A stretch of DNA of 64,000 nt, taken from Lysobacter sp. S4-A87 (GTDB lineage: Bacteria; Pseudomonadota; Gammaproteobacteria; Xanthomonadales; Xanthomonadaceae). Made by a program: the position numbers and the translations under genes. The stretch lies in the NCBI RefSeq assembly GCF_022637455.1, contig NZ_CP093341.1:2604001-2668000 (forward strand), given 5' to 3'. The notes below the pieces were generated by a model. It made no database searches and was not told the origin of the DNA. It saw only the letters and a list, made by a program, of their open reading frames with translations. Below, in pieces: positions 12,276-34,014 of the stretch. Within the stretch, counting starts at the first letter, position 1; each line of letters begins with the position of its first letter.

Positions 12276-15400
<3,125 letters not shown>

Positions 15401-15584
15401 GCCGCTCCGTGCCGGGTGGGGCCGGCGGTTGAATGGGGCGGACACGAGCGTGGCAGAGTCCGCGGCCGTGGTCACCTGCGGGGCCTGGGCGGGCCCGCGC
15501 CGCCAGCCGGTGCCGGGGGCGCCGATGTCGGCGGTGTCGGTCACCTCGCCCTCGGAAGCGTGAGCCTCGGGCGCGCGGACACGG

Positions 15585-17304: not shown

Positions 17305-17306
17305 CG

Positions 17307-18332: not shown

Positions 18333-18352
18333 GGCACGTTCCTGGGGGAAGG

Positions 18353-19795
18353 TCAGAACGAGAACTGCGCGCGGGTGAAGAAGGCCTTTTCGTCTTCGCG
18401 GTCGGCGCCGGCAGGCGCACCACCGTCGAAGTCGGTCTGTGTGTAGTTGGCTACCAGCTTGAAGTTGCTGTTGAGGTACCAGTTGACGCCCACGCCCCAC
18501 GCCTTGGCGTTGCGTGCGGATACGGCGGGGTCGGCGAACAGCGGGAAGGCATCGTCGTCGATGTCCAGTTCGCCGTAACGCGCCACCAGCTCCCACGCAC
18601 CCCAGCCTGCACTGCCGACCGTAAAAGGATGGTTAGGCCGTGTTACGCCCTTGTATCCGGCGTCCTCGCCAGTGAGCACGACGCCGGCGCTGAGCTGCCA
18701 GGCGCTGTTGTCGATCGATTCGCGCGCACCGGTGGCCGGCAGCACCACGTCCTGGCTGGAGCTGATGTACTCGCCGAGCAGGCCGAATGCGTTGCGGTAG
18801 TAGTACGCCTGCGGCGACCAGCGCGTGTTCTCGCCATCGGCGGCCACGGCGCTGCGGTAGTTGAAGAACTGCACCTGGCCGGACGAGCGGTAACGCGGCA
18901 GGAAATTGTTGCCGGTGCCCTGCTTGTCGCCGGCGCTGCCGGCAATGCCGAAGCCCAGGCCGGACAACGCGTTGCCATCGTTCTTCCACGGCTCGACGAA
19001 GACGCGTGCGGCGACTTCGAAATCGTTGTCCGGGTTGGTGGTCGAACCGTCGCGGCCATCGACCGCACCGTTGTAGACGCCCAGCGCGTAGCTGACGGTC
19101 GAGCTGGCGAACTCGCCCTGCAGCTGCACGCCGATGTCGCGGCCGGGCGCCAGTTCGCCGGGCAGGCCAAGCTCGACCTGTGCAGTCGATCCGCTCGACT
19201 GCAGCCGCTCCAGCCCGACCGGCACCTTGGTCTTGCCGATGCGGACCGTCGCGCGCGGATCGAACTTGAGGTCGAGGTAGACGTCGCTGGTGGTGGCGCT
19301 GTCGCCGGCCAGCTGCGCGGTGATGCGGTAGCCGATCAACGATCCCCACGTGCCTTCGATGGTCGGTTCGATCCGGCGCATCAGGAAGGTGTCGTTCTGC
19401 GGGTACTGGTCGTCATCGAAGTAGAAGCGTCCATCGCCCTGGACCAGCGCTTTGAACTTGACCTCGACATCGCCGGGCGGCGGCGACTTCACCGACAGGC
19501 CCTTGCTGGCGCTGAGGCTGACCGTCGGGGTGCTGGCGGCGCGGGTGGCGGCTTCTTCCGACTGCAGCTCGAGCTTGCGTTCGATCACGCGCAGGCGCTG
19601 GTCGAGGTCGGCCAGGCCGGCGTCGTCGGCGGTGGCGGACGGTGTGGTGCCCAGGCGCTGCTCGATGGCCTGCAGGCGGCGGGCGAGGTCTTCTACGGTC
19701 GGGGCGGTCTGTGCCTGGGTCGGGGCGGCCAGCGCGCAGGCCAGCGCGCCGCTCAGCCAGGCCACGGGGGACGACGTTGGGTGCGGGGTCGGCAT
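18353..19795 (-). CDS. OprP/OprO-type outer-membrane porin linked to the sulfate operon
   Basis: A 480-residue outer-membrane beta-barrel protein. Residues 1-29 are a signal peptide ([11 protein letters not shown]). A coiled-coil segment follows at about 32-80 ([30 protein letters not shown]), then a phosphate-selective porin O/P barrel rich in alternating residues, with [19 protein letters not shown] and [20 protein letters not shown]. It ends in Phe (AQFSF), as expected for BAM insertion. The family name implies phosphate, but its position 20 nt before sbp suggests it passes sulfate or sulfonates here. That is inference from context. Confidence 0.88.
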
Positions 19796-20405: not shown

Positions 20406-21395
20406 CTAGGCGTGGACGCCGTCGATCTCGACCCGCAATTCGCGCCGGCACACCGCTGCGTGCAGCAGGATGCGCGGAACGTCCGGGCCCAGGCGCGCGT
20501 CCAGCTCGGCCGCCACGGCCGCCATCTCGTCGAGCTGGCGCACGTAGACCTTCAGGCGCGAGTGCGCGCCGAACTGCGGCGGCAATGCCGGCCGCTGCGC
20601 ACGTGCGGCGGTCAGCAGGCTGTCGAAATTGGCCAGGGTCTCGTCGAGCTGCGTCACCACCGAATCGATATGGCGCGACTCGTGGCCGACGATCGCGGCA
20701 GTGCCCGACAGCAACAGCGGCATCGCGCCGTCGGCCGGGGGCAGCATCGCGCGGGCGAAGCTCGGCGGCTGCGGCCCGTACTGGCGCGGGTAGCGGTACG
20801 CGCTGATCTGGCGCGGGTTCTCCAGCGGCGTGCCCGGCATGCGCGCGGCCAGCCAGTACACCTGCAGGCGGCGCTCGCTGTCGACGCGGCCGATCGCGGT
20901 GGCCGCCGGCAGCGTCGCCGGATCGACCGTGCCCAGGCCGCGTGCGCGGCCCACGCAGAACTGGCGATAGCGCTCTTCGTCGCCTTCGCCGCTGGTGATG
21001 CCGTCGAGGTAATTCCACACCCGCAGCAGGTTCGGGTAGCCGCGCTCCTGCAGGAACGCCGCCAGCCGGGCGTACAGCCGCCCGGATGTGGCCTCGATGT
21101 CGCTCATGCCGTCGGGGCCGGCCGCTTCATCGAGTTCGATCGCGCCGAACTGCAGCGTGCCGTCCTCGGCCCAGGCGACATCGCCGTCGCGGCCGCGCAT
21201 CACCGGGCCACTGCCACGCCAGACTTCGAACGGCGCGGCGCCATGCGGCTGCAGCGCGACGCGCAGGTAGCGCGGGTCGTCGTGGTGCGGGGCGTCGCTG
21301 CCGAAGCCGATCACCGCCAGGGTGTCGTTGCCGTCCAGCAGTTGCTGGGGGCTGGCGTCGACGTAGTCCACCGACAGGTGCGGCGGTTGCAGCAT
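20406..21395 (-). CDS. xanB2: XanB2-like chorismatase (3-/4-hydroxybenzoate-forming)
   Basis: Expected to cleave chorismate to pyruvate plus 3-hydroxybenzoate (and 4-hydroxybenzoate), the starter for xanthomonadin-type pigments and the diffusible factor of Xanthomonas. The 329-residue protein belongs to the FkbO/Hyg5/XanB2 chorismatase family of RidA-like fold. Visible marks are RGYPNLLRVWNYLDGI, RYRQFCVGRARGL, LPAATAIGR and SGTAAIVGHESRH, followed by the C-terminal chorismate-pocket region ending ILLHAAVCRRELRVEIDG. The start is taken at ATG 21395; a GTG at 21413 would overlap the halogenase stop. It is in tandem with the halogenase gene on the minus strand, almost touching. Confidence 0.92.
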   Translation of the reverse strand: MLQPPHLSVDYVDASPQQLLDGNDTLAVIGFGSDAPHHDDPRYLRVALQPHGAAPFEVWRGSGPVMRGRDGDVAWAEDGTLQFGAIELDEAAGPDGMSDIEATSGRLYARLAAFLQERGYPNLLRVWNYLDGITSGEGDEERYRQFCVGRARGLGTVDPATLPAATAIGRVDSERRLQVYWLAARMPGTPLENPRQISAYRYPRQYGPQPPSFARAMLPPADGAMPLLLSGTAAIVGHESRHIDSVVTQLDETLANFDSLLTAARAQRPALPPQFGAHSRLKVYVRQLDEMAAVAAELDARLGPDVPRILLHAAVCRRELRVEIDGVHA

Positions 21396-21409
21396 GGGGC
21401 GTACCGCGC

Positions 21410-22828
21410 TCACGACTGCGATTCTCCACTGCCCGGTTGCAGGGTGTCGCGGCCGCCGCCGAGGCCGACATCGACGCCCACCTGGCGGCGCCGGCGCAGC
21501 CAGCCACGCAGCGCTTCGGGCGCCATGCTCAGGGCCGTCATCGCATAGATGAAGCGGAACAACCGCAACCTGCGCAGCACGCCGGGGTTGTCGAACACAT
21601 CGCCGGCCAGCATCGAGATCACGGCCTGTTCGACCTGCCAGTAGTTGCGCGGGTGGTTGAACAGGTGGCGCATCACCGGCGTGGTGAAGCGATAGATGAA
21701 CCACTGGAAGTGCTTGAGGCCGCGCTTGAGGCGCCTGCTCATCGCGCGCTGCAGCGACGCTTCGCTGGAGGGATCGCGCAGTGCGCCATCGACGACCTGC
21801 GCGGCCTGCTCGGCGCTGTTCATGCCCAGGTACACGCCCGAGGAGAACACCGGATCGACGAAGGCATAGGCATCGCCGACCATCACCCAGCCCGGGCCGT
21901 GCATCTGCGTGCAGGTGTAGGAGTAGTTGCCGGTGACATGCACCGGGGCGATGCGCGTGGCGTTGCGCATGCGCTTCCACACCGACGGTTCGGACTCCAG
22001 CGCCTTCATCAGGAACGCCTCGGTGTCGCCGCGGCGCTGCTTGAGGAACTCCGGGAAGCACACCGCGCCGACGCTCATCACGCCATCGCGCAGCGGGATC
22101 AGCCACATCCAGCCGTGGGCGAAACGCTGCACGGTGATGTTGCCGGCGTCGTCGCCGGGACGGCGCTCGACATCGCTGAAATGACTGAAGATCGCTGCCG
22201 ACTGGTGCAGCGGGTTCTTCCGCTTGAGCTTGAGCTGGCTGCCGAAGAACGCATCGCGGCCGCTGCCATCGACGATGTAGCGCGGCTTGATCGTGAACGC
22301 ATTGCCGTCGCCATCGCGCGCGTGCACCAGCTGCGGGCGCCCGTCGGCGTCGAACTCGACGCGTTCGACGCGATGGCGCTCGCGCGCATCGACGCCGTTG
22401 GCCTGGCTGTGGCGGAACAGGACTTCGTCGAACTCCTCGCGCTTGACCTGGTAGGCGTAGCCGAACTGCGGGTTCAGCGCCCGCTCGAAGCGGAAGGTGT
22501 TGTAGTTGTCGGCGTCGATCGGGAACTCGGCGCCCGGCTTGAACGTGCCGATGTCCTTGACCTGGTCGAGCACGCCCAGGCGCTCGAGGATCGGCAGGTT
22601 CATCGGCAGCAGCGACTCGCCGATATGGAAGCGTGGATGGCGATCCTTCTCCAGCAGCAGCACGCGCCAGCCGCGGCGGGCCAGCAGGGTGGCGGCGGTG
22701 GTGCCGGCCGGGCCGCCGCCGATCACCAGTACATCGGTGTCGATCGGATCCGGGTGGGGGTGCTGCGCATTCAGGTCCGCGGCCGCGGTGGCGTCGGCCG
22801 GTGCGGGGGCAGGTGCGGTTTCGGTCAT
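21410..22828 (-). CDS. FAD-dependent halogenase/oxidoreductase of the pigment locus
   Basis: A 472-residue flavoprotein of the tryptophan-halogenase superfamily. The first 28 residues are a polar alanine/proline tail. The FAD motif VIGGGPAGTTAATLLARRG follows, then LEKDRHPRFHIGESLLP, typical of flavin halogenases. The WxWxIP motif, diagnostic of halogenases as opposed to monooxygenases, is present as WMWLIP near residue 245. MVGDAYAFVDPVFSSGV is the second FAD-binding stretch. Xanthomonadins are brominated aryl polyenes, so aromatic-ring halogenation of the hydroxybenzoate starter or product is the likely role. ATG 22828 is preferred over in-frame upstream codons lying in a tandem repeat. It is co-oriented with xanB2. 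Confidence 0.88.
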   Translation of the reverse strand: MTETAPAPAPADATAAADLNAQHPHPDPIDTDVLVIGGGPAGTTAATLLARRGWRVLLLEKDRHPRFHIGESLLPMNLPILERLGVLDQVKDIGTFKPGAEFPIDADNYNTFRFERALNPQFGYAYQVKREEFDEVLFRHSQANGVDARERHRVERVEFDADGRPQLVHARDGDGNAFTIKPRYIVDGSGRDAFFGSQLKLKRKNPLHQSAAIFSHFSDVERRPGDDAGNITVQRFAHGWMWLIPLRDGVMSVGAVCFPEFLKQRRGDTEAFLMKALESEPSVWKRMRNATRIAPVHVTGNYSYTCTQMHGPGWVMVGDAYAFVDPVFSSGVYLGMNSAEQAAQVVDGALRDPSSEASLQRAMSRRLKRGLKHFQWFIYRFTTPVMRHLFNHPRNYWQVEQAVISMLAGDVFDNPGVLRRLRLFRFIYAMTALSMAPEALRGWLRRRRQVGVDVGLGGGRDTLQPGSGESQS

Positions 22829-22853
22829 GTGCGAATGATACGGGAAGGCACGA

Positions 22854-22955
22854 CCCCTCTCCGCGGGCGCCGCGCGCCCGTCTCTCTCCCCTCTCCGCGC
22901 CCGCCGCGCGCCCGTCTCTCTCCCCTCTCCGCGCCCGCCGCGCGCCCGTCTCTCT
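22854..22955. repeat. 34-bp tandem repeat between the divergent halogenase and ACP genes
   Basis: Three head-to-tail 34-bp copies at 22854-22887, 22888-22921 and 22922-22955, with the start of a fourth. The unit begins CCCCTCTCCGCG and ends CGTCTCTCT, with GCGCGC-rich inner sequence. Copies two and three appear identical; copy one differs at two bases. It begins 25 bp from the halogenase start and fills the divergent control region. Confidence 0.92.
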
Positions 22956-23063
22956 CCCCTCGTCCGGCAGGGGCAGGGCGGCGGCCGGGTGGAGGAGTTG
23001 CGCGCGGCGCCACGATGCCGGATCGTTGCGCCCCTCGCTTGCCCTTTGCCCCTGGATTGCCCG

Positions 23064-23333
23064 ATGTCTGAACAAAGCCCCGTCGAACGCGAGCTGGCGC
23101 AGCTGCTGGTCGAAAGCCTGAACCTCGAAGACGTGGCGCCGGAGCAGATCGAGCCGGAAGCAGCGCTGTTCGGCGAAGGCCTGGGCCTGGATTCGATCGA
23201 CGCCCTGGAGCTGGCGCTGGCGATCTCCAAGCGCTACGGCTTCCAGCTGCGCTCGGACAACGACGAGAACCGCCGCATCTTCGCTTCGCTGCGCGCGCTC
23301 GCCGCGCATATCGAGCAGCACAAGACCGCCTGA
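23064..23333 (+). CDS. xanC: Acyl carrier protein of the pigment polyketide synthase
   Basis: An 89-residue acyl carrier protein; the Ser of LGLDSIDALELA (near residue 43) should carry 4'-phosphopantetheine. Helix I LAQLLVESLNLEDV and helix II IDALELALAISKRYGF are clear. ATG 23064 gives a normal N-terminus (MSEQSPVERELAQ); the in-frame ATG at 22989 would add a poorly coding extension. It corresponds to XanC, the ACP on which the aryl-polyene chain is built. First gene of a rightward run reaching 29626. Confidence 0.93.
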   Translation: MSEQSPVERELAQLLVESLNLEDVAPEQIEPEAALFGEGLGLDSIDALELALAISKRYGFQLRSDNDENRRIFASLRALAAHIEQHKTA

Positions 23334-23347
23334 GGCGGGCTCCTCCC

Positions 23348-24040
23348 TTGAATCCGACCGTGCTGCTGCCGCTGATCCTTGCGGTCGCCTATCCGTTGCT
23401 CGCGCACTGGGCCAGCGAGGATGGCGGCGGCATGCCGGCCGCTATCGCGCTGGCCGACCTGGTGGTGCTGGTGCTGGCCGTGCCGATGCTCGAACGCCGC
23501 GGCTGGGCATGGGCGCTGGCGTTGCTGCTGGGCGCCGGCCTGGTCTGGCTGGCCGGCACGGCCTACGCGCAACTGCTGCTGCTGGCGCCGCCGATGCTGT
23601 TTGTCGCGCTGGTGGCATGGTTGTTCGGGCGCAGCCTGCTGGCGCCGCGCGAGGCGCTGATCACACGGATAGTTGCAGCGATGGAACGCACCATGCCGGC
23701 TGCGCTGGCACCGGAGCTGTACCGCTACTCGCGCCGCCTCACCGCCGCCTGGGCCGCCGTGCTGGCACTGCTCGCGCTGGCCAACGGCGTGCTGGCGACG
23801 ATCGCGGTTCCCGGCGGCGTCCTGGCGCGACTGGGCCATGTCCCGGCGGTGTCGATCACGCAATCGCAGTGGTCGCTGTTCGCCAACCTGGCCAACTACG
23901 GCATCGTCGGCGGCTTCTTCCTCGGCGAGTACGCGCTGCGGCGGCAGCTGTTCCCGCACCGGCCGTACCGCAACCTGCTGGACTTCCTGCGGCAGATGGC
24001 CGCGCTCGGCCCGAAGTTCTGGCGCGACCTGTTCGCCTGA
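23348..24040 (+). CDS. Pigment-locus integral membrane protein (COG4648-like)
   Basis: A 230-residue membrane protein with five or six hydrophobic segments, for example PTVLLPLILAVAYPLLAH (residues 3-20), IALADLVVLVLAVPML and ALALLLGAGLVWLAG. The polar C-terminal helix FLRQMAALGPKFWRDLF follows a last segment YGIVGGFFLGEYALRR. A protein of this type is a constant member of aryl-polyene clusters and is sometimes misannotated as DNA gyrase subunit B. The start appears to be TTG 23348, because the first in-frame ATG would remove the first membrane segment. It starts 14 nt after the ACP stop. Role in pigment assembly unknown. Confidence 0.78.
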   Translation: MNPTVLLPLILAVAYPLLAHWASEDGGGMPAAIALADLVVLVLAVPMLERRGWAWALALLLGAGLVWLAGTAYAQLLLLAPPMLFVALVAWLFGRSLLAPREALITRIVAAMERTMPAALAPELYRYSRRLTAAWAAVLALLALANGVLATIAVPGGVLARLGHVPAVSITQSQWSLFANLANYGIVGGFFLGEYALRRQLFPHRPYRNLLDFLRQMAALGPKFWRDLFA

Positions 24041-24089
24041 GCGAGGCCTTATCCTGTGCGTCCACGCACAGGTGCCCGCCGCTGCCGCC

Positions 24090-24383
24090 ATGGGTTTCGT
24101 GATCGCCGCCGACCATCCCTGCCTGCCCGGGCACTTCCCGGGGCGGCCGCTGGTGCCCGGCGTGGTGCTGCTCGATCACGTCATCGCCGAGATCGAGGCC
24201 GGACACGGTCCGCTGCCGCCGCTCGGCCTGCCGCAGGTGAAGTTCCTGCAGCCGCTGCTGCCCGGCGAGGAAGCGCACATCGAAATCGCCGGCGCCGCGC
24301 CGCGCTGGCGCTTCCGCGTGCTGCGCGGTGACACGCTGCTGGCCAGTGGCGACATCGTCGCCGCCGGGGCGCAGCCGGTGTGA
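24090..24383 (+). CDS. FabZ/FabA-like hotdog dehydratase of the pigment locus (short form)
   Basis: A hotdog-fold protein of about 97 residues. The dehydratase signature HPCLPGHFPGRPLVPGVVLL, with its catalytic His, lies near residues 8-27 and KFLQPLLPGEEAHIEI further on. Expected to dehydrate beta-hydroxyacyl-ACP intermediates, like ApeI-type partners in aryl-polyene clusters. Start uncertain: ATG 24090 is used, but an in-frame GTG at 24072 would add six residues and a CTG at 24054 lies 7 nt after GAGG. The stop overlaps the GTG start of the acyltransferase (GTGTGA), so the two are coupled. Confidence 0.82.
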   Translation: MGFVIAADHPCLPGHFPGRPLVPGVVLLDHVIAEIEAGHGPLPPLGLPQVKFLQPLLPGEEAHIEIAGAAPRWRFRVLRGDTLLASGDIVAAGAQPV

Positions 24384-25399
24384 ACGCGCACTGGAAGCAG
24401 CGTCCCGAAGGCGGCAGTCGCTTCGCCATCTGGCTGATCCGCAGCATCGCCCGCTACGGCGGTCGCGCGGTCGCGCGGCTGTGCCTGTACCCGATCACCG
24501 CCTACTTCCTGCTGGTGCGCGGACCGGAGCGGCGCGCCTCGCGCGACTACCTGGCGCGCGTGCTGCAACGTCCGCCGGCGTGGTGGAACGTCGCACGCCA
24601 CGTCCACACCTTCGCCTCGACCATCCTCGACCGCGTGTTCCTGCTGAGCGGCCAGCTGTCGCGCTTCGACATCCGCGTCGAAGGCCTGGAGGCGCTGGCG
24701 CGGCGGGTGGATCGCGGCGAAGGCGTGCTCGTGTTCGGTTCGCACCTGGGCAGCTTCGACGCCCTGCGCGTGCTGGTGACGACGCGGCCGTCGCTGCGCG
24801 TGCGCATCGTCCTCGACATCTCGCACAATCCTGCGCTGACCCAGCTGCTCGATGCACTCAACCCGCGCCTGGCGCGCGATGTCATCGACGCCGGACAGGA
24901 TGGCGTCGCCATCGTGCTGGCGATCCAGCAGGCGCTGGCGGCGGGCGAGCTGGTCGCGTTGCTGGTCGACCGCGCCGCGCCGGGAGAAACCGTCACGCGC
25001 GTGCCGTTCCTCGGCGACGACGCGCCGTTCCCGAACGCCCCGTGGCTGATCGCCGCGACGCTGCAGGTGCCGGTCGTGCTCGCCTTTGGCCTGTACCGCG
25101 GCGGCAACCGCTACGACCTGCGTTTCGCGGAGTTCAGCGATGGTCGCGATACGCTGCGCCAGCATGTGTCACGCAAGGACCGGCGCGATGCGGTTACCGC
25201 GCAGGTCCGGCGTTACGCGGCGTTGCTGCAGGAGCAGGTGCGCGGTGCCCCCTACAACTGGTTCAACTTCTACGATTTCTGGGACGGCGATGACGCGGCG
25301 GACGAAGAGCAAGCGCAGCAACAACGTGGCCGCGTGGGCGCGGCGACTGGCACCGGTGTGGATGCTGGCCAGCGCGACGCTTTGCGCAGCCGCACCTGA
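24380..25399 (+). CDS. LpxL/HtrB-type lysophospholipid/lipid acyltransferase
   Basis: A 339-residue membrane-associated acyltransferase of the LpxL/HtrB family. An N-terminal membrane-anchoring region (residues about 15-50) includes RLCLYPITAYFLLVRGPERR. The catalytic H(X4)D motif appears as SHLGSFDALR near residue 118, followed by ALLVDRAAPGETVTRVPFLG. Aryl-polyene and xanthomonadin loci normally carry one such enzyme, thought to esterify the polyene to a lipid anchor in the outer membrane. GTG 24380 overlaps the previous stop. The last 110 nt overlap the LolA-like gene, giving a hydrophilic Gln/Ala-rich tail. Confidence 0.86.
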   Translation: MNAHWKQRPEGGSRFAIWLIRSIARYGGRAVARLCLYPITAYFLLVRGPERRASRDYLARVLQRPPAWWNVARHVHTFASTILDRVFLLSGQLSRFDIRVEGLEALARRVDRGEGVLVFGSHLGSFDALRVLVTTRPSLRVRIVLDISHNPALTQLLDALNPRLARDVIDAGQDGVAIVLAIQQALAAGELVALLVDRAAPGETVTRVPFLGDDAPFPNAPWLIAATLQVPVVLAFGLYRGGNRYDLRFAEFSDGRDTLRQHVSRKDRRDAVTAQVRRYAALLQEQVRGAPYNWFNFYDFWDGDDAADEEQAQQQRGRVGAATGTGVDAGQRDALRSRT

Positions 25400-26009
25400 G
25401 GGCGCCGCGGCGGTCGAACCGGAGGTTGGCCCGGCGGTCGACCCGGCGTGGATCCTCAAGGGCATCGCGCGACCGGTGCCGGCGAGCACGCCGTTCGTGG
25501 AAGTGCGCGCATCGAAGCTGCTGAAGGCGCCGCTGCGCCTGTCGGGCCAGTACGTGCGGCCCGACCGCGACACGCTGGTGCGCGAAGTCCGAGCGCCCTA
25601 TGTCGAGACCACCACCCTGCGCGCAGGCGAGGCCACCATCGCGCGCGCCGGACAGTCGTCGCGCAGGTTCGCGCTGTCGCGCGTGCCCGAGCTGGCCGGT
25701 TTCCAGGGCAACTTCGCCGCGCTGCTGGACGGCGATCGCGCCGGCCTGGAGCGTCACTACACGCTGTCCGCACAAGGCTCGCGCCAGCGCTGGACGCTGA
25801 CGATGTTGCCGCGGGATGCGGCGCAGGCGACGCGACTGCAGGCGATCGCGTTGTACGGACGCGGTTCGGAATTGCGCTGCATCGAGACGCGCACCGTCGG
25901 CAACGCACCCCCGCAGCACACGCTCCTGGCCGGCGCCGCGGTCGACGCGGCCGCTGTCGTCGATGCCCCGGCGCTGGCGGAACTCTGCCACGGCGGCGCA
26001 GCACGATGA
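25290..26009 (+). CDS. LolA-like outer-membrane lipoprotein carrier-related protein
   Basis: A 239-residue exported protein related to LolA. The N-terminus MTRRTKSKRSNNVAAWARRL is strongly basic and is followed by the signal segment LAPVWMLASATLCAAAPEG. The mature part shows beta-rich LolA-like features: VEVRASKLLKAPLRLSGQYV and RAPYVETTTLRAGEATI. Such a protein sits beside the MMPL exporter in aryl-polyene loci and may ferry the lipid-linked pigment across the periplasm. ATG 25290 makes a 110-nt overlap with the acyltransferase; GTG 25356 would shorten it but also truncate the basic n-region. Confidence 0.8.
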   Translation: MTRRTKSKRSNNVAAWARRLAPVWMLASATLCAAAPEGAAAVEPEVGPAVDPAWILKGIARPVPASTPFVEVRASKLLKAPLRLSGQYVRPDRDTLVREVRAPYVETTTLRAGEATIARAGQSSRRFALSRVPELAGFQGNFAALLDGDRAGLERHYTLSAQGSRQRWTLTMLPRDAAQATRLQAIALYGRGSELRCIETRTVGNAPPQHTLLAGAAVDAAAVVDAPALAELCHGGAAR

Positions 26010-26019
26010 GCACGAACGC

Positions 26020-28383
26020 ATGAGCGCGCCCCGGCGCCTCGCCCTCGCGCTGCTGTGGCTGGTCGCGTTGCTGATCCTGGCGACGCTGGTCGCACCGCGC
26101 CTGCAGCTCAGCGGCGACCTGCGCAAGTTCATGCCGGCGCCGCAGACCGCCGCGCAGAAGCTCCTGATCGATGAACTCGGCGAAGGCCCGGGCTCGCGCC
26201 TGCTGCTGGTCGGCCTGGCCGGTGCGGACGCGGCAACGCTGGCAACGCAGTCGCAGGCACTGCGCGAGCGGCTGGCGTCGCTGCCGTCGTTCAAGCTGGT
26301 CGCCAACGGTGCCGCGCTCGGGCCCGAGGCCATTCCGCCAAACCTTCGACCCTACCGCTACCTGCTGTCTTCGAAGCTGGACGCGCAGGCACTGGATGCG
26401 GACTACCTGCGTGCCGAGCTCGATGCGCGCGTGCAGGACCTGGGCTCGCCGGCAGCGGCGCTGATCGAACCGCTGCTGGCGGCCGACCCGACCCTGGAAA
26501 CCCTCGCCCTCGCCGAGGCCTGGCAACCGGCGAATGCGCCGCAGCGCCTGCACGGCGTCTGGTTCGACAAGGCCGGCCGCGAAGCGCTGCTGGCCATCGA
26601 GACGCATGCCGCCGGCTTCGACCCGAAGGGCCAGCAGGTCGCCTTCGATTCGATCCAGGCGGCGTTCGCCGACGTTGCCCGCGGCACCGCCACGCGGATG
26701 TCGCTGACCGGACCGGGCGCGTTCTCGGTCGAGATCGGCAACCGCACCGCGCGCGAGGCCAGCCTGATCGGCACGCTCGACAGCCTCGTCTTCGTGCTGC
26801 TGCTGTGGCTGGCCTACCGCAGCTGGAAAGCGCCGCTGCTGGGTGGCCTGCCGTTGGCCAGCGCCGGCCTGGTGGGGCTGGGCGCGGTGGCGCTGGCCTT
26901 CGATGGCGTCCACGGCATCACCGTCGCATTCGGCTTCACGCTGATTGGCGTGGTCCAGGATTACCCGATCCATCTGTTCAGCCACCAGCGCGCCGGTGTA
27001 TCGCCATGGGCGAGTGCGCGCGCGCTGTGGCCGACGCTGGCCACCGGCGTGGCATCGACCTGCATCGCCTACCTGACCTTCCTCGTCTCCGGCGTCGACG
27101 GCTTGCAACAGCTGGCCGTGTTCACGGTAGTTGGCCTGGCGACGGCAGCGCTGGCGACGCGGTTCCTGCTGCCGGCGCTGATCGATCCGGCGCCGCGCGA
27201 TGCCGCCGACTCGGCCTGGCTGGGGCGCTGCTGGGAACGCCTGGCGCGCTGGCCACGCCTGCGCGGCGGCACGGTGCTGGCGATTGCGCTGGTCGCCGCC
27301 GCGGTGGCCGCATTCGCGCCCGGTTCGTTCTGGCAGAACGACCTCGGCCGCCTGACGCCGGTACCGCCGGCCGCACTGGCGCGCGATGCGCAGTTGCGCG
27401 CCGAACTGGGCGCACCCGACGTGCGCTACGTGCTGGTGGTGCAACAGCCGGATGTCGAGTCCGCACTGCGATCCTCCGAGCGGCTGTTGCCGGCGTTGCA
27501 ACGCCTGCGTGCCGACGGCGCCATCGGCGGCTTCGATCTGGCCGCGCGTTACCTGCCGAGCGCGGCGACGCAGCAGGCGCGACAGGCACGGTTGCCCGAT
27601 CGCCCGGCGTTGCGGGCAGCGCTCGACGCGGCGATGGCCGATGGTCCGTTCCAGTCCGACGCCTTCGATGAATTCGTTGCCGATGTCGAACGCGCGAAGA
27701 ACGCGCCTGCACTGGCACCGCGCGACCTCGCCGGCACGCCCTTGTCGGCCAGCGTCGAAGGGCTGCTGCTGCAGCGCGGCGGCCACGTCACCGCGCTGGT
27801 GGCCCTGAGCGGCCTGCACGATCCGGCGGCTGTCGCGCAGGTCGCAAGCCGTCACGGCGCGCAGTTGCTGGACCTCAAGCAGGCGTCGGAGTCGCTGGTC
27901 GCCCAGTACCGCCAGCGCGTGTTGTGGGCGCTGGCGCTGGCGTCGGTGCTGCTGACCGCGGCGGTGTGGTTCGCATTGCGCTCGCCGCGGCGCGTGCTGC
28001 GCGTGCTGGCGCCGATGGCGCTGAGCACGCTGCTGATCCTGGCCCTGCTGCGCGCCGCCGGCGTCGAGCTGAACCTGTTCCACCTGGTGTCGTTGATCCT
28101 CGCCGCCGGCCTGGGCCTGGACTATGCGCTGTTCTTCGATCACGCCGGCGACGACCGCGCCGAGCAGCTGCGCACCCTGCATGCAGTGATCGTCTGCAGC
28201 CTGACGACCTTGCTGGTGTTCGCGCTGCTGGCGGCATCGAGCATCCCGGTGCTGCGCGCGATAGGGGCCACGGTCGCGCTCGGCGTGGTCTGCAACTTCG
28301 TGCTGGCGCTGTTGATCGTGCGCGCGCCGGTGGCGGCGGCGGGCGCGGCGGGCGGCGTGGGCGGAGCGGCCGATGGCGCGTGA
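26020..28383 (+). CDS. MMPL/RND-superfamily exporter of the pigment locus
   Basis: A 787-residue inner-membrane exporter with two-fold RND topology. Segment 1 lies at residues about 7-27 (ALLWLVALLILATLVAP), then a periplasmic domain to about 245, a five-segment block to about 390, segment 7 at about 417-437, a second periplasmic domain, and a last five-segment block at about 633-773. Polar residues inside segments include GFTLIGVVQDYPIHLFSHQR and GLGLDYALFFDH, the MMPL family's Asp/Tyr signature in each half. Probably exports the lipid-linked pigment. It starts 10 nt after the LolA-like gene and overlaps the next by 11 nt. Confidence 0.9.
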   Translation: MSAPRRLALALLWLVALLILATLVAPRLQLSGDLRKFMPAPQTAAQKLLIDELGEGPGSRLLLVGLAGADAATLATQSQALRERLASLPSFKLVANGAALGPEAIPPNLRPYRYLLSSKLDAQALDADYLRAELDARVQDLGSPAAALIEPLLAADPTLETLALAEAWQPANAPQRLHGVWFDKAGREALLAIETHAAGFDPKGQQVAFDSIQAAFADVARGTATRMSLTGPGAFSVEIGNRTAREASLIGTLDSLVFVLLLWLAYRSWKAPLLGGLPLASAGLVGLGAVALAFDGVHGITVAFGFTLIGVVQDYPIHLFSHQRAGVSPWASARALWPTLATGVASTCIAYLTFLVSGVDGLQQLAVFTVVGLATAALATRFLLPALIDPAPRDAADSAWLGRCWERLARWPRLRGGTVLAIALVAAAVAAFAPGSFWQNDLGRLTPVPPAALARDAQLRAELGAPDVRYVLVVQQPDVESALRSSERLLPALQRLRADGAIGGFDLAARYLPSAATQQARQARLPDRPALRAALDAAMADGPFQSDAFDEFVADVERAKNAPALAPRDLAGTPLSASVEGLLLQRGGHVTALVALSGLHDPAAVAQVASRHGAQLLDLKQASESLVAQYRQRVLWALALASVLLTAAVWFALRSPRRVLRVLAPMALSTLLILALLRAAGVELNLFHLVSLILAAGLGLDYALFFDHAGDDRAEQLRTLHAVIVCSLTTLLVFALLAASSIPVLRAIGATVALGVVCNFVLALLIVRAPVAAAGAAGGVGGAADGA

Positions 28384-28795
28384 GGACATCGAGCTGCTGA
28401 TTCCCCACCAGGGTGCGATGTGCCTGTGGGAAGAGATCGTCGAATGGGATGGCGAGCACGTCCGCCTGCGTTCGCATGGCCACCGCGACCCGGCGCACCC
28501 GTTGCGCCACGTCGGCCGGCTGCACGCGGTGCACTTGTGCGAGTACGGCGCCCAGGCGATGGCCGTGCACGGTGGCCTGCTCGCGCGCGCCGCCGGCGAG
28601 ACCGTGCGACCGGGCCTGCTGGTGACCCTGCGCGGCGTCGAACTGCACGTCGAGCGCATCGATGAACTGGCCGGCGCGCTCGAGGTCGAGGCGCGATGCC
28701 TGATCGCCGACGCCACGGGCAGCCAGTACCAGTTCGCGATCCAGCACGGCGGCGTCGAAATCGCCCACGGCCGCGCCGCCGTCCTCTACCGGTAG
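28373..28795 (+). CDS. ApeP-like hotdog 3-hydroxyacyl-ACP dehydratase
   Basis: A 140-residue hotdog protein of the type found in aryl-polyene clusters (ApeP, COG4706). IELLIPHQGAMCLWEEIVEW near residues 6-25 and HLCEYGAQAMAVHGGLLAR (long helix, near 56-74) are family marks. Together with the short hotdog gene at 24090 it would introduce the polyene double bonds. The ATG lies within the 3' end of the exporter gene. Its stop codon TAG (28793-28795) lies inside the left arm of a REP-like palindrome, so the repeat supplies the end of the gene. Confidence 0.87.
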   Translation: MAREDIELLIPHQGAMCLWEEIVEWDGEHVRLRSHGHRDPAHPLRHVGRLHAVHLCEYGAQAMAVHGGLLARAAGETVRPGLLVTLRGVELHVERIDELAGALEVEARCLIADATGSQYQFAIQHGGVEIAHGRAAVLYR

Positions 28796-28867
28796 CCCGG
28801 GTAAGCGAAGCGCACCCGGGGTCCCGTGCCGCCTGAACCCCGGGTGCGCTTCGCTTACCCGGGCTAC
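28792..28867. repeat. REP-like inverted pair, family 1 (copies 4 and 5), perfect 30-bp arms
   Basis: Left arm 28792-28821 (GTAGCCCGGGTAAGCGAAGC...) and right arm 28838-28867 are exact 30-bp inverted copies around a 16-base spacer. The element separates the ApeP-like gene from the ketoreductase gene and could fold into a very stable hairpin acting as a processing or attenuation point within the operon. Confidence 0.95.
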
Positions 28868-28873
28868 GCGGCG

Positions 28874-28879
28874 CACAAT
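28874..28879 (+). promoter_or_regulatory. Possible -10 box for the ketoreductase gene
   Basis: CACAAT, 6 nt before the ATG at 28886 and just after the REP hairpin. Position matches the leaderless pattern seen elsewhere in the window, but the hexamer is weak. Confidence 0.25.
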
Positions 28880-28885
28880 TGCGCC

Positions 28886-29626
28886 ATGAATCCGTCCAGC
28901 TCACATCCCCGTCGCGCCCTCGTCACCGGTGGCAGCGGCGATATCGGCAGTGCGATCTGCCGGCGCCTGGCCGCCGATGGCTGCGAGGTGATCGTCCACG
29001 CCAACCGCAACCTCGAGCGCGCGCAGGAGATAGCCGCTGCGATCGAGGGCGCCGGCGGTCGGGCCGTGGCGGTGTCGTTCGATGTCGCCGACGGCGAGGC
29101 CACCGGCGCGGCGATGGCAGGCCTGCTCGAACACGGCCCGATCCAGATCGTGGTCAACAACGCCGGCATCCACGACGATGCGCCGCTGGCCGGCATGAGC
29201 GACCGGCAGTGGAAGCAGGTCATCGACGTCTCGCTGCACGGCTTCTTCCACGTCACCCAGCCGCTGCTGCTGCCGATGGCGCGCACGCGCTGGGGGCGGG
29301 TGGTGAGCGTGTCGTCGGTGGCGGCGGTGCTGGGCAACCGCGGCCAGACCAACTACGCCGCGGCCAAGGCGGCGCTGCACGGCGCGACCAAGTCGCTGGC
29401 GCGGGAAATGGGCAGCCGCGGCATCACCTGCAATGTCGTCGCCCCGGGCCTGATCGCCGGGCGCCTGGCGGATGCGGCGTTCCCGGCGTCGGCCATCAAG
29501 CAACTGGTGCCGGCGGCCCGCGCCGGCCGGTCCGACGAGGTCGCCGCGCTGGTGGCCTTCCTGTGCTCGGACGCGGCCGGCTACATCAACGGCCAGGTGA
29601 TCGGCATTGACGGTGGAATGACCTGA
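28886..29626 (+). CDS. 3-ketoacyl-ACP reductase (FabG-like, SDR) of the pigment locus
   Basis: NADPH-dependent reduction of beta-ketoacyl-ACP intermediates. The 246-residue short-chain dehydrogenase shows the cofactor loop VTGGSGDIGSAICRRLAADG near residues 12-31, NNAG near 90, the catalytic Ser in VVSVSSVAAVLGN and YAAAK (Tyr/Lys), and a C-terminal GYINGQVIGIDGGM typical of FabG. ATG 28886 (MNPSSSHPRRALVTGG) is chosen; the longer frame would read through the REP hairpin. It is the last biosynthetic gene of the rightward run. Confidence 0.92.
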   Translation: MNPSSSHPRRALVTGGSGDIGSAICRRLAADGCEVIVHANRNLERAQEIAAAIEGAGGRAVAVSFDVADGEATGAAMAGLLEHGPIQIVVNNAGIHDDAPLAGMSDRQWKQVIDVSLHGFFHVTQPLLLPMARTRWGRVVSVSSVAAVLGNRGQTNYAAAKAALHGATKSLAREMGSRGITCNVVAPGLIAGRLADAAFPASAIKQLVPAARAGRSDEVAALVAFLCSDAAGYINGQVIGIDGGMT

Positions 29627-29706
29627 CTGAACGTCAGGAATTTCGCATTGGCCGGCCCGCGCGGCCTGGCGTAGGATCGGCGCATCTTCCAACCCCGGAG
29701 ATCGCC

Positions 29707-30288
29707 ATGCGTCGCGTCCTCCTGTCCCTCGTTCCCCTCCTGCTTGCTGTGCTGGCCGGCTGTTCGTCGACCTCGCAGCTGGTCACCGGCACGCCGCGCA
29801 CGCCGATCGACCCGTCGCAGGTCCGCATCTACTTCACGCCGCCGCCGGGTGGCTACGAAGAGATCGCCCAGCTGGAAACCGCCAGCGGTGGCTTCACCTA
29901 CGGCGAGCAGAACAAGCTCAACGACGTCATCAACAACCTGCGACTCGAGGCCGCCAAGCTCGGCGCCAACGGCGTGCTGTTCGTCGGCAGCGAGAACAGC
30001 TACGGCGGCAGCAGCATCGGCGTCGGTGCCGGTGGCGGCAGCTACGGCGGCTACCGCGGTGGCAGCTTCAGCTCGGGCGGCATCGGCGTGAGCATCTCGC
30101 CGACCAAGAAGTACGCGCACGGCGTGGCGATCTTCGTCGCCAATCCGCCGCCGGAACAGGGTCCGCCGGCGATGCAGCCGCAGCAGGGCGTGCCGCAGCA
30201 GGGCGTGCAGCAGCAAGGTGTGCAGCAGCAGGTCACTCCGCCAAAGGGCACGCCGCCGCAGGGCACGCCGCCGAACGGCAGCAAGTAG
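29707..30288 (+). CDS. Hypothetical lipoprotein with Gly-rich and Gln/Pro-rich tail
   Basis: A 193-residue lipoprotein. The signal peptide ends in the lipobox LAGC (Cys about residue 19, MRRVLLSLVPLLLAVLAGCS). A compact domain of about 80 residues follows, with YEEIAQLETASGGFTYGEQN and VINNLRLEAAKLGANGVLFV. Then comes a Gly/Ser-rich stretch (about 100-125), a short YAHGVAIFVANPP segment and a low-complexity tail of repeated QQGV and TPP units. It lies at the point where the two halves of the pigment locus converge and has its own upstream gap of 80 nt. No link to pigment synthesis can be shown. Unknown function. Confidence 0.75.
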   Translation: MRRVLLSLVPLLLAVLAGCSSTSQLVTGTPRTPIDPSQVRIYFTPPPGGYEEIAQLETASGGFTYGEQNKLNDVINNLRLEAAKLGANGVLFVGSENSYGGSSIGVGAGGGSYGGYRGGSFSSGGIGVSISPTKKYAHGVAIFVANPPPEQGPPAMQPQQGVPQQGVQQQGVQQQVTPPKGTPPQGTPPNGSK

Positions 30289-30296
30289 CCGCGCGT

Positions 30297-31157
30297 CTAC
30301 CGCGTCGCGTCGTCGATCGCGGCAAGCGCCTCGCGGGCGGTCTCGCGCGAAAGCAGCGCTTCACCGTCGTCGATCAGCGGCGGATTGGCGCGGATGCTGC
30401 GGAACATAGCCGGAATGCTGCCGCGGCGGAACACGCCGGCGACGATGTGCGAGGTGATCCGGCTGAAGTCGCGCAGCGGCTTGAAGTGGCTGGCGCGGAA
30501 CTGCTCGTCGCCGTGCACGCTCTGGTAGCGCGATTCGATCGGCACCGACACGCAGCGCGTGCCCAGCTGCTGCGCGGCCGAAATCAGGATCTGCGCCTCG
30601 AACACGAAGTCCTCGCCAGGCGTGTCGGTCAGCGCCGCCACCGCGGCCGGATACAGGCGCTGGCCGCTCTGGCTGTCGGCGATGCCATAACCGGTGCCCC
30701 AGGCGATGCCCCAGTCGGCGAAGCCGTTGGCCAGGCGGCGGTGCAGCGGCTGCTGCGAACGGCGCTGCAGGCGCGCACCGATGACGACATGATCGGGATG
30801 GCGATTGGCGCTGGCGAGCAGGCGCGGGATGTCGCGCGCCAGGTGCTGGCCGTCGCCGTCCATCGTCACGATGGCGCGTGCGCCCATCGTCAGCGCTACC
30901 GCGAAGCCGTGGCGCAGGCTGGCGCCCTTGCCCATGCGCACGGAGTGGCGAAGCACGGTCGCCGGCAGGTCGGCGATGCATTCGCCGGTGCCGTCGTCGG
31001 AACCGTCATCGATGACGATCACGCGCGGGCATTCGGCGAGCGCGCCGCTGACGACCTCGCGGATGCGCAATGCCTCGTTGAGCGCGGGAATGACCACGAC
31101 CAGGTCGTCGCGGGTCAGGCGAGCCGGGCGCGTGGCGATGTGCAGGTCGTCAGCCAT
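30297..31157 (-). CDS. Family 2 glycosyltransferase of the pigment locus
   Basis: A 286-residue GT2-type (DPM1-like) glycosyltransferase. The nucleotide-sugar site VVVIPALNEALRIREVV begins near residue 20. VIVIDDGSDDGTGECI carries the first Asp pair and TMDGDGQH the DXD-type metal motif. GIADSQSGQRLYPAAVAAL and EDFVFEAQILI match the family's acceptor region. Such a gene is found in xanthomonadin-type loci and may glycosylate the lipid or aryl head group. ATG 31157 overlaps the chain-length factor stop by 8 nt, so it belongs to the KS-CLF-GT transcript. Confidence 0.88.
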   Translation of the reverse strand: MADDLHIATRPARLTRDDLVVVIPALNEALRIREVVSGALAECPRVIVIDDGSDDGTGECIADLPATVLRHSVRMGKGASLRHGFAVALTMGARAIVTMDGDGQHLARDIPRLLASANRHPDHVVIGARLQRRSQQPLHRRLANGFADWGIAWGTGYGIADSQSGQRLYPAAVAALTDTPGEDFVFEAQILISAAQQLGTRCVSVPIESRYQSVHGDEQFRASHFKPLRDFSRITSHIVAGVFRRGSIPAMFRSIRANPPLIDDGEALLSRETAREALAAIDDATR

Positions 31158-32007
31158 GCGCGAACTCCAGCAGCGCGCCGGCCACAGGCGCGTCCTCGCT
31201 GGCGGCACCCTGCGCCGGCGTGAGCTCGACCAGCAGGTCGTGGTCGGGGCCGGCGACTAGATGCACGTGACCGTGGCCGCGTGCGAGCAGGTCGAACAGC
31301 GGCAGCATCGGCGCCATGGCATTGGCTGCGGCCAGCGTCGACAACGGTCCGCGGGCGTCGCGACCGCCGCTGCGGGCCGTCAGCTGCACGCGCAGCTGCG
31401 GGCGTCCGGGTGCGGCCTCCCGCGACAGCACCAGCGCACCGCCGAGCAGGCCTTCGCTGGGTGCCATCCGCGCCAGTGGGCCGGCGGCCTGGCCGTCGTA
31501 GGCGACCAGCAGTACCGCCTCGTCGCCGCAGGCCAGCTGCGCCAGTGCATCGAGCAGGCCTTGCGCGAAGCTCGCTTCGCGCGCGCTGATCGCGCTGGCC
31601 GGTGCCATCGCGCCGGTACCGATGGTCCAGTAGCCGGCGGCGGCGTTGTGCACCGAGTTGTGGAAGCGCGTCGGCGACAGCGCCTGCGGATCGCCGGCAA
31701 GCGTCGCGCACATGTAGTCGGTGATGCCCAGGTCGCCGTGGGTCGAGGCGAACACCGACGGCAGCGTGGCCGGATCGCGGCCGGCGTCCTGGCAGGCCGC
31801 CAGGGCGACTTCGAGCGCGACTGCCACGGTATCGGGCGCACGCCGACGCTCGTTGGCGGGCAGCAGCTGCGGCGACGGGCGTGCCGGCGCATCGGCCACG
31901 GGCGTGCCGCCACCGTCGTCGGTGGCGTAGGCGATCGCGGTGCCCCACGAGGGCAATCCGCGCGTCCAGAAACCGATGCCTTCGATGTGGGCCGACAGCG
32001 GCGTCAT
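31150..32007 (-). CDS. Beta-ketoacyl synthase chain-length factor
   Basis: A 285-residue protein of the Ketoacyl-synt_2 / KS-like chain-length factor group. It keeps the thiolase-like N-terminal half: VALEVALAACQDAGRDPATL, VFASTHGDLGITDYMCATL and FHNSVHNAAAGYW, and the region where a ketosynthase would have its active-site Cys lacks one. It should pair with the neighbouring ketosynthase as in type II polyketide synthases and set polyene length. ATG 32007 overlaps the ketosynthase stop by four bases (ATGA), so translation is coupled and stoichiometric. The long frame reaching 32706 is a shadow of the ketosynthase. Confidence 0.88.
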   Translation of the reverse strand: MTPLSAHIEGIGFWTRGLPSWGTAIAYATDDGGGTPVADAPARPSPQLLPANERRRAPDTVAVALEVALAACQDAGRDPATLPSVFASTHGDLGITDYMCATLAGDPQALSPTRFHNSVHNAAAGYWTIGTGAMAPASAISAREASFAQGLLDALAQLACGDEAVLLVAYDGQAAGPLARMAPSEGLLGGALVLSREAAPGRPQLRVQLTARSGGRDARGPLSTLAAANAMAPMLPLFDLLARGHGHVHLVAGPDHDLLVELTPAQGAASEDAPVAGALLEFAHG

Positions 32008-33182
32008 GCGCGACCGAACACCAGCGAGCAGTTGTTGCCGCCGAAACCGAAGGAGTTGTTCATTGCGTATGCGATGTCGACGCGCTGCGGGTGGAAGCGG
32101 ATCTGCGGGCCGCAGGCGGGGTCGGGCGTGGCGCTGTGGAGCGTGCCGGGCAACTCGCCGTGTTCCAGCGCGATCAGCGCGATCACCGATTCGACGATGC
32201 CGGCGGCGCCGAGCGTGTGCCCGGTCCAGCCCTTGGTCGAGCTGGCATGCAGGCTGTCCGGGAACAACCCGGCCACCGCGGCCGCTTCGATCGAATCGTT
32301 GGCGGGCGTGGCGGTGCCATGCAGGTTGAGATAGCCGACGTCGCCGGCGCTGATGCCGGCGCGGGCGAGCGCATCGCGCATGGCCAGCTGCGCGCCCAGG
32401 CCTTCCGGGTGCGGCGACGACATGTGGTGGGCGTCGCTTGACTCGCCATAGCCGCGCAGCTGCAGGCCGCTCTCGCCAGGCTGTGCGCGTTCGAGCACGG
32501 CGAATCCGCCGGCTTCGCCCAGCGACAGGCCGGTGCGTCCGGCGTCGAAGGGCTGGCACGGCCCGCTGGCGACCAGCTGCAGCGAGTTGAAGCCGAACAG
32601 CACGCTGCCGCACAGGGTGTCGACGCCACCGACCAGCGCCGCATCGGCGAGGCCGGCGGCGATCAGTCGCGCGGCCTGGGCGAACACCTTCGCACTCGAC
32701 GAGCACGCCGTGGCCACGGTGACCGCGGGTCCGCGAAGGCCGCTGGCGTGCTGGACGAACTCGCCGAGCGAATGCGGCGTGTGCACGTCGGCGCGCGCCA
32801 GCGCCGGAGGAAATCCACCGTCGACGAGATGGGCGTAGGCATCCTCGGTCGCGCCGATGCTGGACGTCGAAGTACCGACCACGACCGCGATGCGATCGGC
32901 GCCATGGCGTGCGACCAGCGCGGCGATCGCCTCGGGGATGCCGTCCTGGTTCAGCGCCAGCCAGGCAAGGCGGTTGTTGCGCGAATCCCAGCGGCTGAAC
33001 TGCGCCGGCAGCGGCATCTCTTCGAGCCCGTCGACGCGGCCGATCCAGCAGTCCAGTGGCGCCGACCCGAAGTCATTGCGGCGCAGGCCACTGCGCGACT
33101 CGCGCAGCGCCGCCGCCAGTGCCTCGCGACCACGGCCCACGGCGCTGGTCGCGGTGTAGGCGCGGATCGCCAGGGGCGGCAT
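32004..33182 (-). CDS. Beta-ketoacyl-ACP synthase (KS) of the pigment polyketide synthase
   Basis: Decarboxylative condensation that elongates the aryl-polyene chain on the ACP. The protein has 392 residues from ATG 33182. The catalytic Cys is in VATACSSSAKVF, His in LNLHGTATPAND and the second His/Lys region in SSTKGWTGHTLGAAG; NNSFGFGGNN closes the C-terminal half. All three catalytic positions are present. A GTG at 33224 with GAGAG six bases upstream is an alternative start that would add 14 Pro/Ala-rich residues. First gene of the KS-CLF-GT transcript, with TATACT at 33251-33256 upstream. Confidence 0.9.
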   Translation of the reverse strand: MPPLAIRAYTATSAVGRGREALAAALRESRSGLRRNDFGSAPLDCWIGRVDGLEEMPLPAQFSRWDSRNNRLAWLALNQDGIPEAIAALVARHGADRIAVVVGTSTSSIGATEDAYAHLVDGGFPPALARADVHTPHSLGEFVQHASGLRGPAVTVATACSSSAKVFAQAARLIAAGLADAALVGGVDTLCGSVLFGFNSLQLVASGPCQPFDAGRTGLSLGEAGGFAVLERAQPGESGLQLRGYGESSDAHHMSSPHPEGLGAQLAMRDALARAGISAGDVGYLNLHGTATPANDSIEAAAVAGLFPDSLHASSTKGWTGHTLGAAGIVESVIALIALEHGELPGTLHSATPDPACGPQIRFHPQRVDIAYAMNNSFGFGGNNCSLVFGRA

Positions 33183-33250
33183 CGGCACCACAGCGGGACT
33201 GGCAGGACTCGGAGCAGGCGGCACGCGGGACTCTCTTTCCAACAGTGCGC

Positions 33251-33256
33251 AGTATA
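33251..33256 (-). promoter_or_regulatory. Candidate -10 box for the KS-CLF-glycosyltransferase transcript
   Basis: TATACT on the minus strand, with TGG just upstream (extended -10 style). It lies about 27 nt before GTG 33224 and 69 nt before ATG 33182 of the ketosynthase. Confidence 0.45.
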
Positions 33257-33330
33257 GCCAGCGCCCTTGCGGCCTATCCGGCGCGTAAACTGAACGACTT
33301 GTTCCCCGACCGACCACGCGCCCGTTCACA

Positions 33331-34014
33331 GTGACCAGCCGCAGCGCCCACCGACTGGCCCTTTTTGCCGACCGGGACGTCCTCCATGCCATGGCCGTGG
33401 CCGGCGCCGCCTGCCTTTTCAGTGCCGGGCTGGTCTATCTCGGCTACCTGGTCCATGTCCTGCGCGTGGCGCGGCGGGCGTCTTGCCGGCCCCAGCACGG
33501 CAACTGCGTGCTGCTGTTCGGCAAGCATTCACCGCAGGGCCGCATCGACCACGATTTCGAAGCACGCCTGGACCGGGCCGCCTCGCTGTGGAAAAGCAGC
33601 CCGCCGGCGAGCCTGGTGCTGCTCGGTGGCGGCGCGCCGGGCGAGGTCACCGAGGCGGAACTGGCGCGCGCCGGCCTGCGCGCGCGCGGCATGACCGATG
33701 ACACGCCGTTGCTGCTGGAGTCCGATTCGCGCGACACGCTGCAGAACCTGCGCAACGCCAGGACGCTGCTGGGCGAGCGGATGCGCTCGCGCGTGACCCT
33801 GCTGAGCAGCCGCTACCACCTGGCCCGCTGCGCGCTGTTCGCCCGCCAGCTCGGTTTCGATGTCGAATTGTGCGCGGCCGAACCGCACCTGCGCCTGGAC
33901 CCGCGCACCTGGCTGCGCCTGGTCGGGGAGGCCGGATATGTCTGCATGACCGACGTGGGCGCGCGCTGGGCCCGCCTGATCGGGCATCGGCGGATGCTGG
34001 CCCGGGTCAGCTAG
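33331..34014 (+). CDS. DUF218/YdcF-family protein
   Basis: A 227-residue protein with one membrane segment (residues about 20-42, AMAVAGAACLFSAGLVYLGYLV) followed by a DUF218 domain: NCVLLFGKHSPQGRIDHDF, RLDRAASLWKSSPPASLVLLGG, LLLESDSRDTLQNLRNAR and VTLLSSRYHLARCALFARQLG. DUF218 members include SanA, ElyC and YdcF; the latter two bind nucleotides or affect envelope lipid carriers. The start is GTG 33331. It is divergent from the ketosynthase, across a 148-bp region, so it may belong to the pigment locus; this is not proven. Confidence 0.82.
   Translation: MTSRSAHRLALFADRDVLHAMAVAGAACLFSAGLVYLGYLVHVLRVARRASCRPQHGNCVLLFGKHSPQGRIDHDFEARLDRAASLWKSSPPASLVLLGGGAPGEVTEAELARAGLRARGMTDDTPLLLESDSRDTLQNLRNARTLLGERMRSRVTLLSSRYHLARCALFARQLGFDVELCAAEPHLRLDPRTWLRLVGEAGYVCMTDVGARWARLIGHRRMLARVS

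Follow-up and report, generated by a model that had tools for sequence, protein, structure and literature searches.

Gene content of the locus

The stretch of DNA analysed here (the window) comprises 64 kb of the genome of Lysobacter sp. S4-A87, namely positions 2604001-2668000 of a single contig of 3.89 Mb; coordinates follow window numbering unless marked as genome positions. An intact-looking xanthomonadin-type aryl-polyene locus occupies positions 20406-33224, and its genes fall into three blocks: xanB2 and a halogenase gene on the minus strand; the genes from an acyl carrier protein (ACP) through a ketoreductase (KR) and a lipoprotein on the plus strand; and the genes for a ketosynthase (KS), a chain-length factor (CLF) and a GT2 glycosyltransferase on the minus strand. 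The original prediction, made from the letters of this stretch alone, had named the pathway genes and described two leftward blocks and one rightward block. Open frames were found at all of the positions concerned, most with Pfam, NCBIfam or PDB matches, and the gene calls bore out the geometry. Within the blocks the genes are separated by 90 bp or less or overlap: xanB2 and the halogenase gene lie 14 bp apart, the KS and CLF genes share 4 bases (the KS stop over the CLF start), and the CLF and GT2 genes share 8 bases.

In the first block, the product of the gene at 20406-21395 (minus strand) matched PF21168 (E 6.2e-40) and the FkbO structure 4bps (E 1.5e-43), which identifies it as a XanB2-type chorismatase, predicted to convert chorismate into 3- or 4-hydroxybenzoate. 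The adjoining gene (21410-22828, minus strand) encodes a flavin halogenase in the position and of the type of xanB1, with a match to PF04820 (E 7.9e-30); the solved structure closest to it by sequence is 3e1t, labelled 'Halogenase' (E 4.6e-60).

In the rightward block (plus strand), the ACP (23064-23333; PF00550; NF006617, 148 bits against a cut-off of 70) and the FabG-like KR (28886-29626; NF004200, 328 bits against 273) scored above the NCBIfam cut-offs. The ACP gene is followed by that of a membrane protein (MEM, 23348-24040), for which a TTG start is assumed and whose membrane nature was read from its sequence. Hotdog dehydratase 1 (DH1, 24072-24383) gave a weak match to FabA (E 7.7e-4) and a best PDB-chain match at E about 2e-6, FabZ being among those chains, and dehydratase 2 (DH2, 28373-28795) is named by position only; both occupy conserved places. 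Family matches were obtained for all four of the LpxL-type acyltransferase (24380-25399; PF03279, E 2.7e-9), the LolA-like carrier (25326-26009, start uncertain between 25290 and 25362; PF19574, E 2.5e-81), the MMPL-family exporter (26020-28383; PF03176, E 1.2e-10) and, on the minus strand, GT2 (30297-31157; PF00535, E 9.1e-20). The block ends with the lipoprotein gene (29707-30288), which holds a DUF4156-like stretch (PF13698, E 7.2e-4, below the cut-off) and 15-bp repeats at 30177-30271 that code for a Gln-rich tail. NCBIfam named none of MEM, DH2, LolA, CLF and the lipoprotein.

In the third block (minus strand), the KS (32004-33224, start codon uncertain) carries a CSSS motif and matched NF006618 (510 bits against a cut-off of 407), and the short CLF (31150-32007, 285 residues) matched PF13723 (E 8.2e-29). 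The two proteins matched the two different chains of two solved heterodimers, KS matching 6qsp chain A (E 1.1e-68) and 7f28 chain B (E 3.3e-72) and CLF matching 6qsp chain B (E 1e-10) and 7f28 chain A (E 1.4e-8); both structures are ApeO-ApeC complexes (PMC8358021). CLF also has S111 and Q157, which, matched by spacing and not by alignment, lie 46 residues apart as do S120 and Q166 of L. enzymogenes ORF16 (PMC3691225).

Conservation of gene order and of the facing layout

A CLF query matched 164 of 197 genomes of the family at E <= 0.001. One group of matches was strong, with E values of 1.5e-72 or lower and identities of at least 55%. The remainder of those listed were weak, reaching E 8.6e-19 at best, and could represent a different type of aryl-polyene cluster. 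Two sets with overlapping genomes were compared: 60 stretches of 14.7-18.3 kb around strong CLF matches, from 60 genomes hand-picked across genera, and 80 loci from named organisms. The results showed that KR points rightward and CLF and KS leftward in 59 of the 60 stretches, the exception (L018) having no KR in its stretch, and in all 61 of the named loci that hold xanB2, ACP, KR, GT2, CLF and KS. The exact core order was found in 60 of these 61 (in L124, KR appears as two matches) and in 48 of the 51 stretches that hold xanB2 and ACP, the exceptions being L011 (an extra KR match), L023 (no MEM and a second GT match) and L028 (no MEM). MEM occupies the same place in 49/51. The comparison with xan loci of Xanthomonas and Lysobacter that had been proposed thus gave the same order, and its recurrence across the family is far beyond chance.

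KS and CLF do face the rest of the pathway, as the original prediction had it, but this is not distinctive, since the layout is shared by 59/60 and 61/61 loci and agrees with the published L. enzymogenes order. The facing arrangement is the inherited norm of the family, without special meaning in Lysobacter sp. S4-A87, and the claimed oddity is thereby removed.

Incomplete loci were also found. Among the remaining 19 named loci, the sequence extends less than 9 kb from the MMPL gene in one direction in 14; five extend further in both directions and are still incomplete, L085 and L100 lacking GT2-CLF-KS, L095 lacking KR to KS, and L128 and L136 lacking the genes left of MMPL, implying that the cluster is sometimes broken up. 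KR stays beside KS/CLF in L017, L059 and L060, with no gene from ACP to DH2 in the stretch, and in L018 only the lipoprotein gene stays on the KS side. L018 and L085 come from one contig (G002:C14) on which about 79 kb separate CLF and the halogenase gene, a naturally split cluster.

These data bear on the idea that the arrangement is an unusual, strain-specific one in which KS, CLF and GT2 have been turned so that three functional modules can be controlled apart. The three blocks exist, a promoter-like element precedes each of them, and the split cluster of G002 demonstrates that the KS-CLF-GT block can stand apart. The same facing in almost every locus compared argues against it, as do block borders that vary (KR beside KS/CLF in L017, L059 and L060) and functions that are not partitioned by block. 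Assignment of the blocks to starter supply, modification with export, and elongation, as originally proposed, did not hold: ACP, KR, DH1 and DH2 sit with the acyltransferase, LolA and MMPL genes, KS and CLF are grouped with GT2, and starter supply is divided between xanB2 and a ligase gene 37 kb from CLF. We consider the strain-specific arrangement highly improbable.

Comparison with known pigment clusters

The yellow-pigment locus of L. enzymogenes OH11 (ORF5-ORF17), published in 2013, loses its pigment on deletion of KS, ACP, KR or ORF16 (CLF), and apart from the halogenase gene it has the gene set and gene order of the window locus, including ORF16-17 (CLF-KS), ORF15 (GT), LolA, the exporter and the two dehydratases (PMC3691225). 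Sulfate/phosphate transporter genes lie beside it (PMC3691225), as sulfate genes do here: cysA, cysW, cysT and the gene for a sulfate-binding protein, followed by a porin gene, lie left of xanB2 at 14357-18500. A named L. enzymogenes record (L080) shows the same order and strands apart from the halogenase gene, which lies between xanB2 and ACP in S4-A87, whereas L080 and, according to the published description, OH11 have none (PMC3691225).

The Xanthomonas pig/xan cluster shares the order and facing, and XanB1, a putative reductase/halogenase, adjoins XanB2 in it (PMC3838355). It differs in that the AMP-ligase gene adjoins xanB2 (PMC3838355), and in Xanthomonas loci that reach GT2 there is an additional halogenase-like gene, FAD2, to the left of it. 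No FAD2 was found in the S4-A87 genome, where the sole match of a 338-aa FAD2 query was the xan halogenase (29%). In the Xanthomonas phaseoli record L124, the matches to FAD2 and to KR are each divided into two pieces, so both genes could be interrupted there or carry a frameshift. The Azoarcus arc loci have a XanB2-type ArcB, the halogenase ArcA, LolA, an exporter, an acyltransferase, ACP and an AMP-ligase in common with S4-A87, but form two unlinked clusters, with the ligase gene between arcU and a dehydratase gene (PMC3949708).

Ape clusters share the KS-CLF heterodimer and the logic of KR and dehydratases (PMC8253772, PMC8358021). The homology of KS and CLF to ApeO-ApeC raises the alternative that the locus directs a different aryl polyene, either an arcuflavin-like hybrid or one of the Ape type of E. 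coli/Xenorhabdus. However, Ape clusters have a second ACP and a FabB-like ApeR (PMC8253772, PMC8358021), and neither was found in the window locus, to which the ApeR search was limited and which holds one ACP and one KS; XanB2 is present, and the genes are ordered as in Xanthomonas, Pseudoxanthomonas and Lysobacter xan loci. Judged by these features of the locus, a different aryl polyene is extremely unlikely. A type III polyketide synthase (PF02797) was sought in the whole genome and none was found.

The family and structure matches, together with the order shared across the family, agree with the predicted xanthomonadin-type gene set, and we put at about 0.93 the probability that this is a chromosomal Lysobacter locus of the ordinary xanthomonadin-type aryl-polyene kind. 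The best-scored named relatives of the MMPL protein are mostly from Lysobacter (for example L. prati 91%, L. changpingensis 81%, L. soli 80%; the strain's own genome may be missing from these matches). Foreign origin was rejected, the GC content of the locus (0.69-0.72) lying within the range of the window (0.65-0.74) and no signs of transfer being found at the locus.

Several results weigh against this assignment. MEM had no match in Pfam or NCBIfam, DH2 had none in Pfam, NCBIfam or the PDB sequences, and the XanB2 score for TIGR04444 (207 bits) lies under the NCBIfam cut-off of 325. Broken-up or separated clusters exist (L018, L085, L095, L100, L128 and L136). A scan for consensus sigma-70 promoters gave 0 against 0.4 expected and is uninformative at this GC content. 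The title of a 1982 paper, cited in PMC8253772, calls the X. populi pigment nonbrominated, whereas an X. populi record, possibly of another strain, holds halogenase and FAD2 stretches without stop codons, so that bromination of the pigment is uncertain.

A detached candidate starter ligase

No AMP-ligase gene was found in the locus, and nine AMP-binding matches in the genome all lie outside the window. One of them, at genome positions 2598150-2599502 (L009:2151-3503), is XanA2/ArcT-like and lies 37 kb from CLF, flanked by genes that their translations name as RsmG-like and exonuclease-III-like. A presumed ortholog adjoins xanB2 in 27 of 68 named xanB2 loci, none of them named Lysobacter, and an AMP-ligase is listed beside xanB2 in Xanthomonas (PMC3838355). 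On the basis of this similarity and of its place beside xanB2 in relatives, the gene at 2598150 is taken as the putative starter ligase that would activate 3-hydroxybenzoate. Its distance from CLF ranges from 38 to 63 kb in six genomes of the same genus. Close relatives of the 2598150 ligase occur across the family; at E <= 0.001 the query had matches in 186 of 197 genomes, with unrelated ligases contributing to that figure. Another AMP-ligase gene, at genome position 409751, was rejected as the starter ligase on account of its different gene neighbourhood. The detachment matters for cluster cloning, as the 13.6 kb alone would come without the ligase gene.

Promoter-like elements and transcription

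A promoter-like element was found before each block. Upstream of ACP lies TTGCGC-N17-GATCGT (22998-23026, plus strand). Among 109 unique ACP upstreams, 54 contain the form TTGCNN-N17-GATCNT, compared with 0 or 1 for spacers of 12-16 or 18-22. This N17 form had 73 matches in all 4.27 Mb of locus strands and is absent from Xanthomonas rows and from some of those for Lysobacter and Luteimonas. The longer form TTGC-N12-GATGCCGGATCGT had one match without mismatch in the genome and, with up to 3 mismatches, 19 places compared to 4 for the reversed pattern. Upstream of KS, a TATACT box (33251-33256, minus strand), a possible -10 element, recurs in 90/111 unique KS upstreams compared to 0.2% of 4000 random control windows. 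Before the halogenase gene, a TATCAT box (22835-22840, minus strand) lies 6 nt from the ATG and may be the -10 element of a leaderless transcript; TATNAT 4-9 bases before ATG/GTG occurred in 36/83 unique halogenase upstreams and in 10/25 xanB2 upstreams without a halogenase, compared to 0.15% of control windows. The upstream rows are related, so the counts for these boxes are not independent.

A conserved box at the head of each block makes separate transcripts plausible. The predicted separate transcription of the blocks is thus backed in part: judged from these upstream sequences, each block probably has its own promoter and separate transcripts are likely, while the consensus sigma-70 scan found none. 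A terminator scan (2 against 4.3 expected) was uninformative at this GC content as well. Seven transcriptional units are cited for the Xcc cluster (PMC3838355). The three footprints predict transcript starts.

The divergent gap between the halogenase and ACP genes also holds a 34-bp repeat (22854-22966, 3.3 copies). As a shared regulatory array it was rejected: within the genome, matches of its core are confined to this gap (3 places), and the unit was not found in the corresponding gaps when 12 related loci, two with identical sequence, were examined.

Halogenase distribution and bromination

A halogenase gene lies between xanB2 and ACP in 40 of the 51 loci of the 60-stretch set and in 51/68 named xanB2 loci (52/69 including the window), predicting brominated pigments outside Xanthomonas. 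On a tree of the MMPL proteins, in which 21 of 66 inner branches are open, accounting for its presence or absence takes 8 changes, of which starred branches force 7; this fits repeated loss, gain or replacement. WxWxIP and FxxPxxSxG, the latter a further halogenase mark, were found in 44/44 halogenases of a first set, that of the window included. In a second, overlapping set, the same Lys was aligned in 56/56 rows, two of which are gapped at the other two motifs; a regular expression for this Lys missed several sequences, and the alignment was used instead. The window halogenase also has GxGxxG and the aligned Lys. Published marks of halogenases are GxGxxG, a conserved Lys and WxWxIP (PMC5945002).

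FAD2 lies directly left of GT2 in at least 34 of the 60 stretches, a lower bound since the halogenase served as query, and is present in 44/61 named loci with both ends. In Xanthomonas, the putative reductase/halogenase XanB1 beside xanB2 is distinguished from a separate halogenase further along the cluster (PMC3838355); the window halogenase is equated by position with the former and FAD2 with the latter. Whole-genome counts with the halogenase query (197/197) were unspecific and not used.

One tentative proposal goes further. Many Lysobacter, S4-A87 among them, may brominate their pigment, bromination then being ancestral and repeatedly lost rather than a mark of Xanthomonas, and each of the three blocks may be driven by a different conserved promoter, one of which would give a leaderless transcript. 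Published reports of brominated Lysobacter pigments or of the promoter footprints were not met in a literature search whose coverage excluded most subscription papers.

Two tandem halogenase genes of different types, 75% and 66% identical to that of the window, were found in L154 (G101) at 4233-6984, which hints at duplication and differential loss. Elsewhere in the S4-A87 genome, three genes match the tryptophan-halogenase family strongly (genome positions 398211, 2997272 and 3000672), two of which lie about 3.4 kb apart.

Proposed pathway

Read through its relatives and the cited papers, the observed gene set, with its order, conservation and footprints, suggests a route, a product and a role. 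XanB2 would form 3-hydroxybenzoate from chorismate, and the distant AMP-ligase would activate it for the ACP. The KS-CLF heterodimer would elongate this starter with malonyl units, KR reducing and DH1/DH2 dehydrating in each round to give an aryl polyene, which the halogenase may brominate. The acyltransferase, GT2, LolA and MMPL proteins would attach the pigment and carry it to the outer membrane, and there the yellow product may protect against light and oxidants. The xanthomonadin-type locus and its facing layout are already known; what is new is modest, namely promoter-like footprints at the block heads, the distribution of the halogenase gene, and a ligase gene detached from the locus. 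Next to the locus, a DUF218 gene (33331-34014) lies on the strand opposite to KS and starts 106 bp beyond it.

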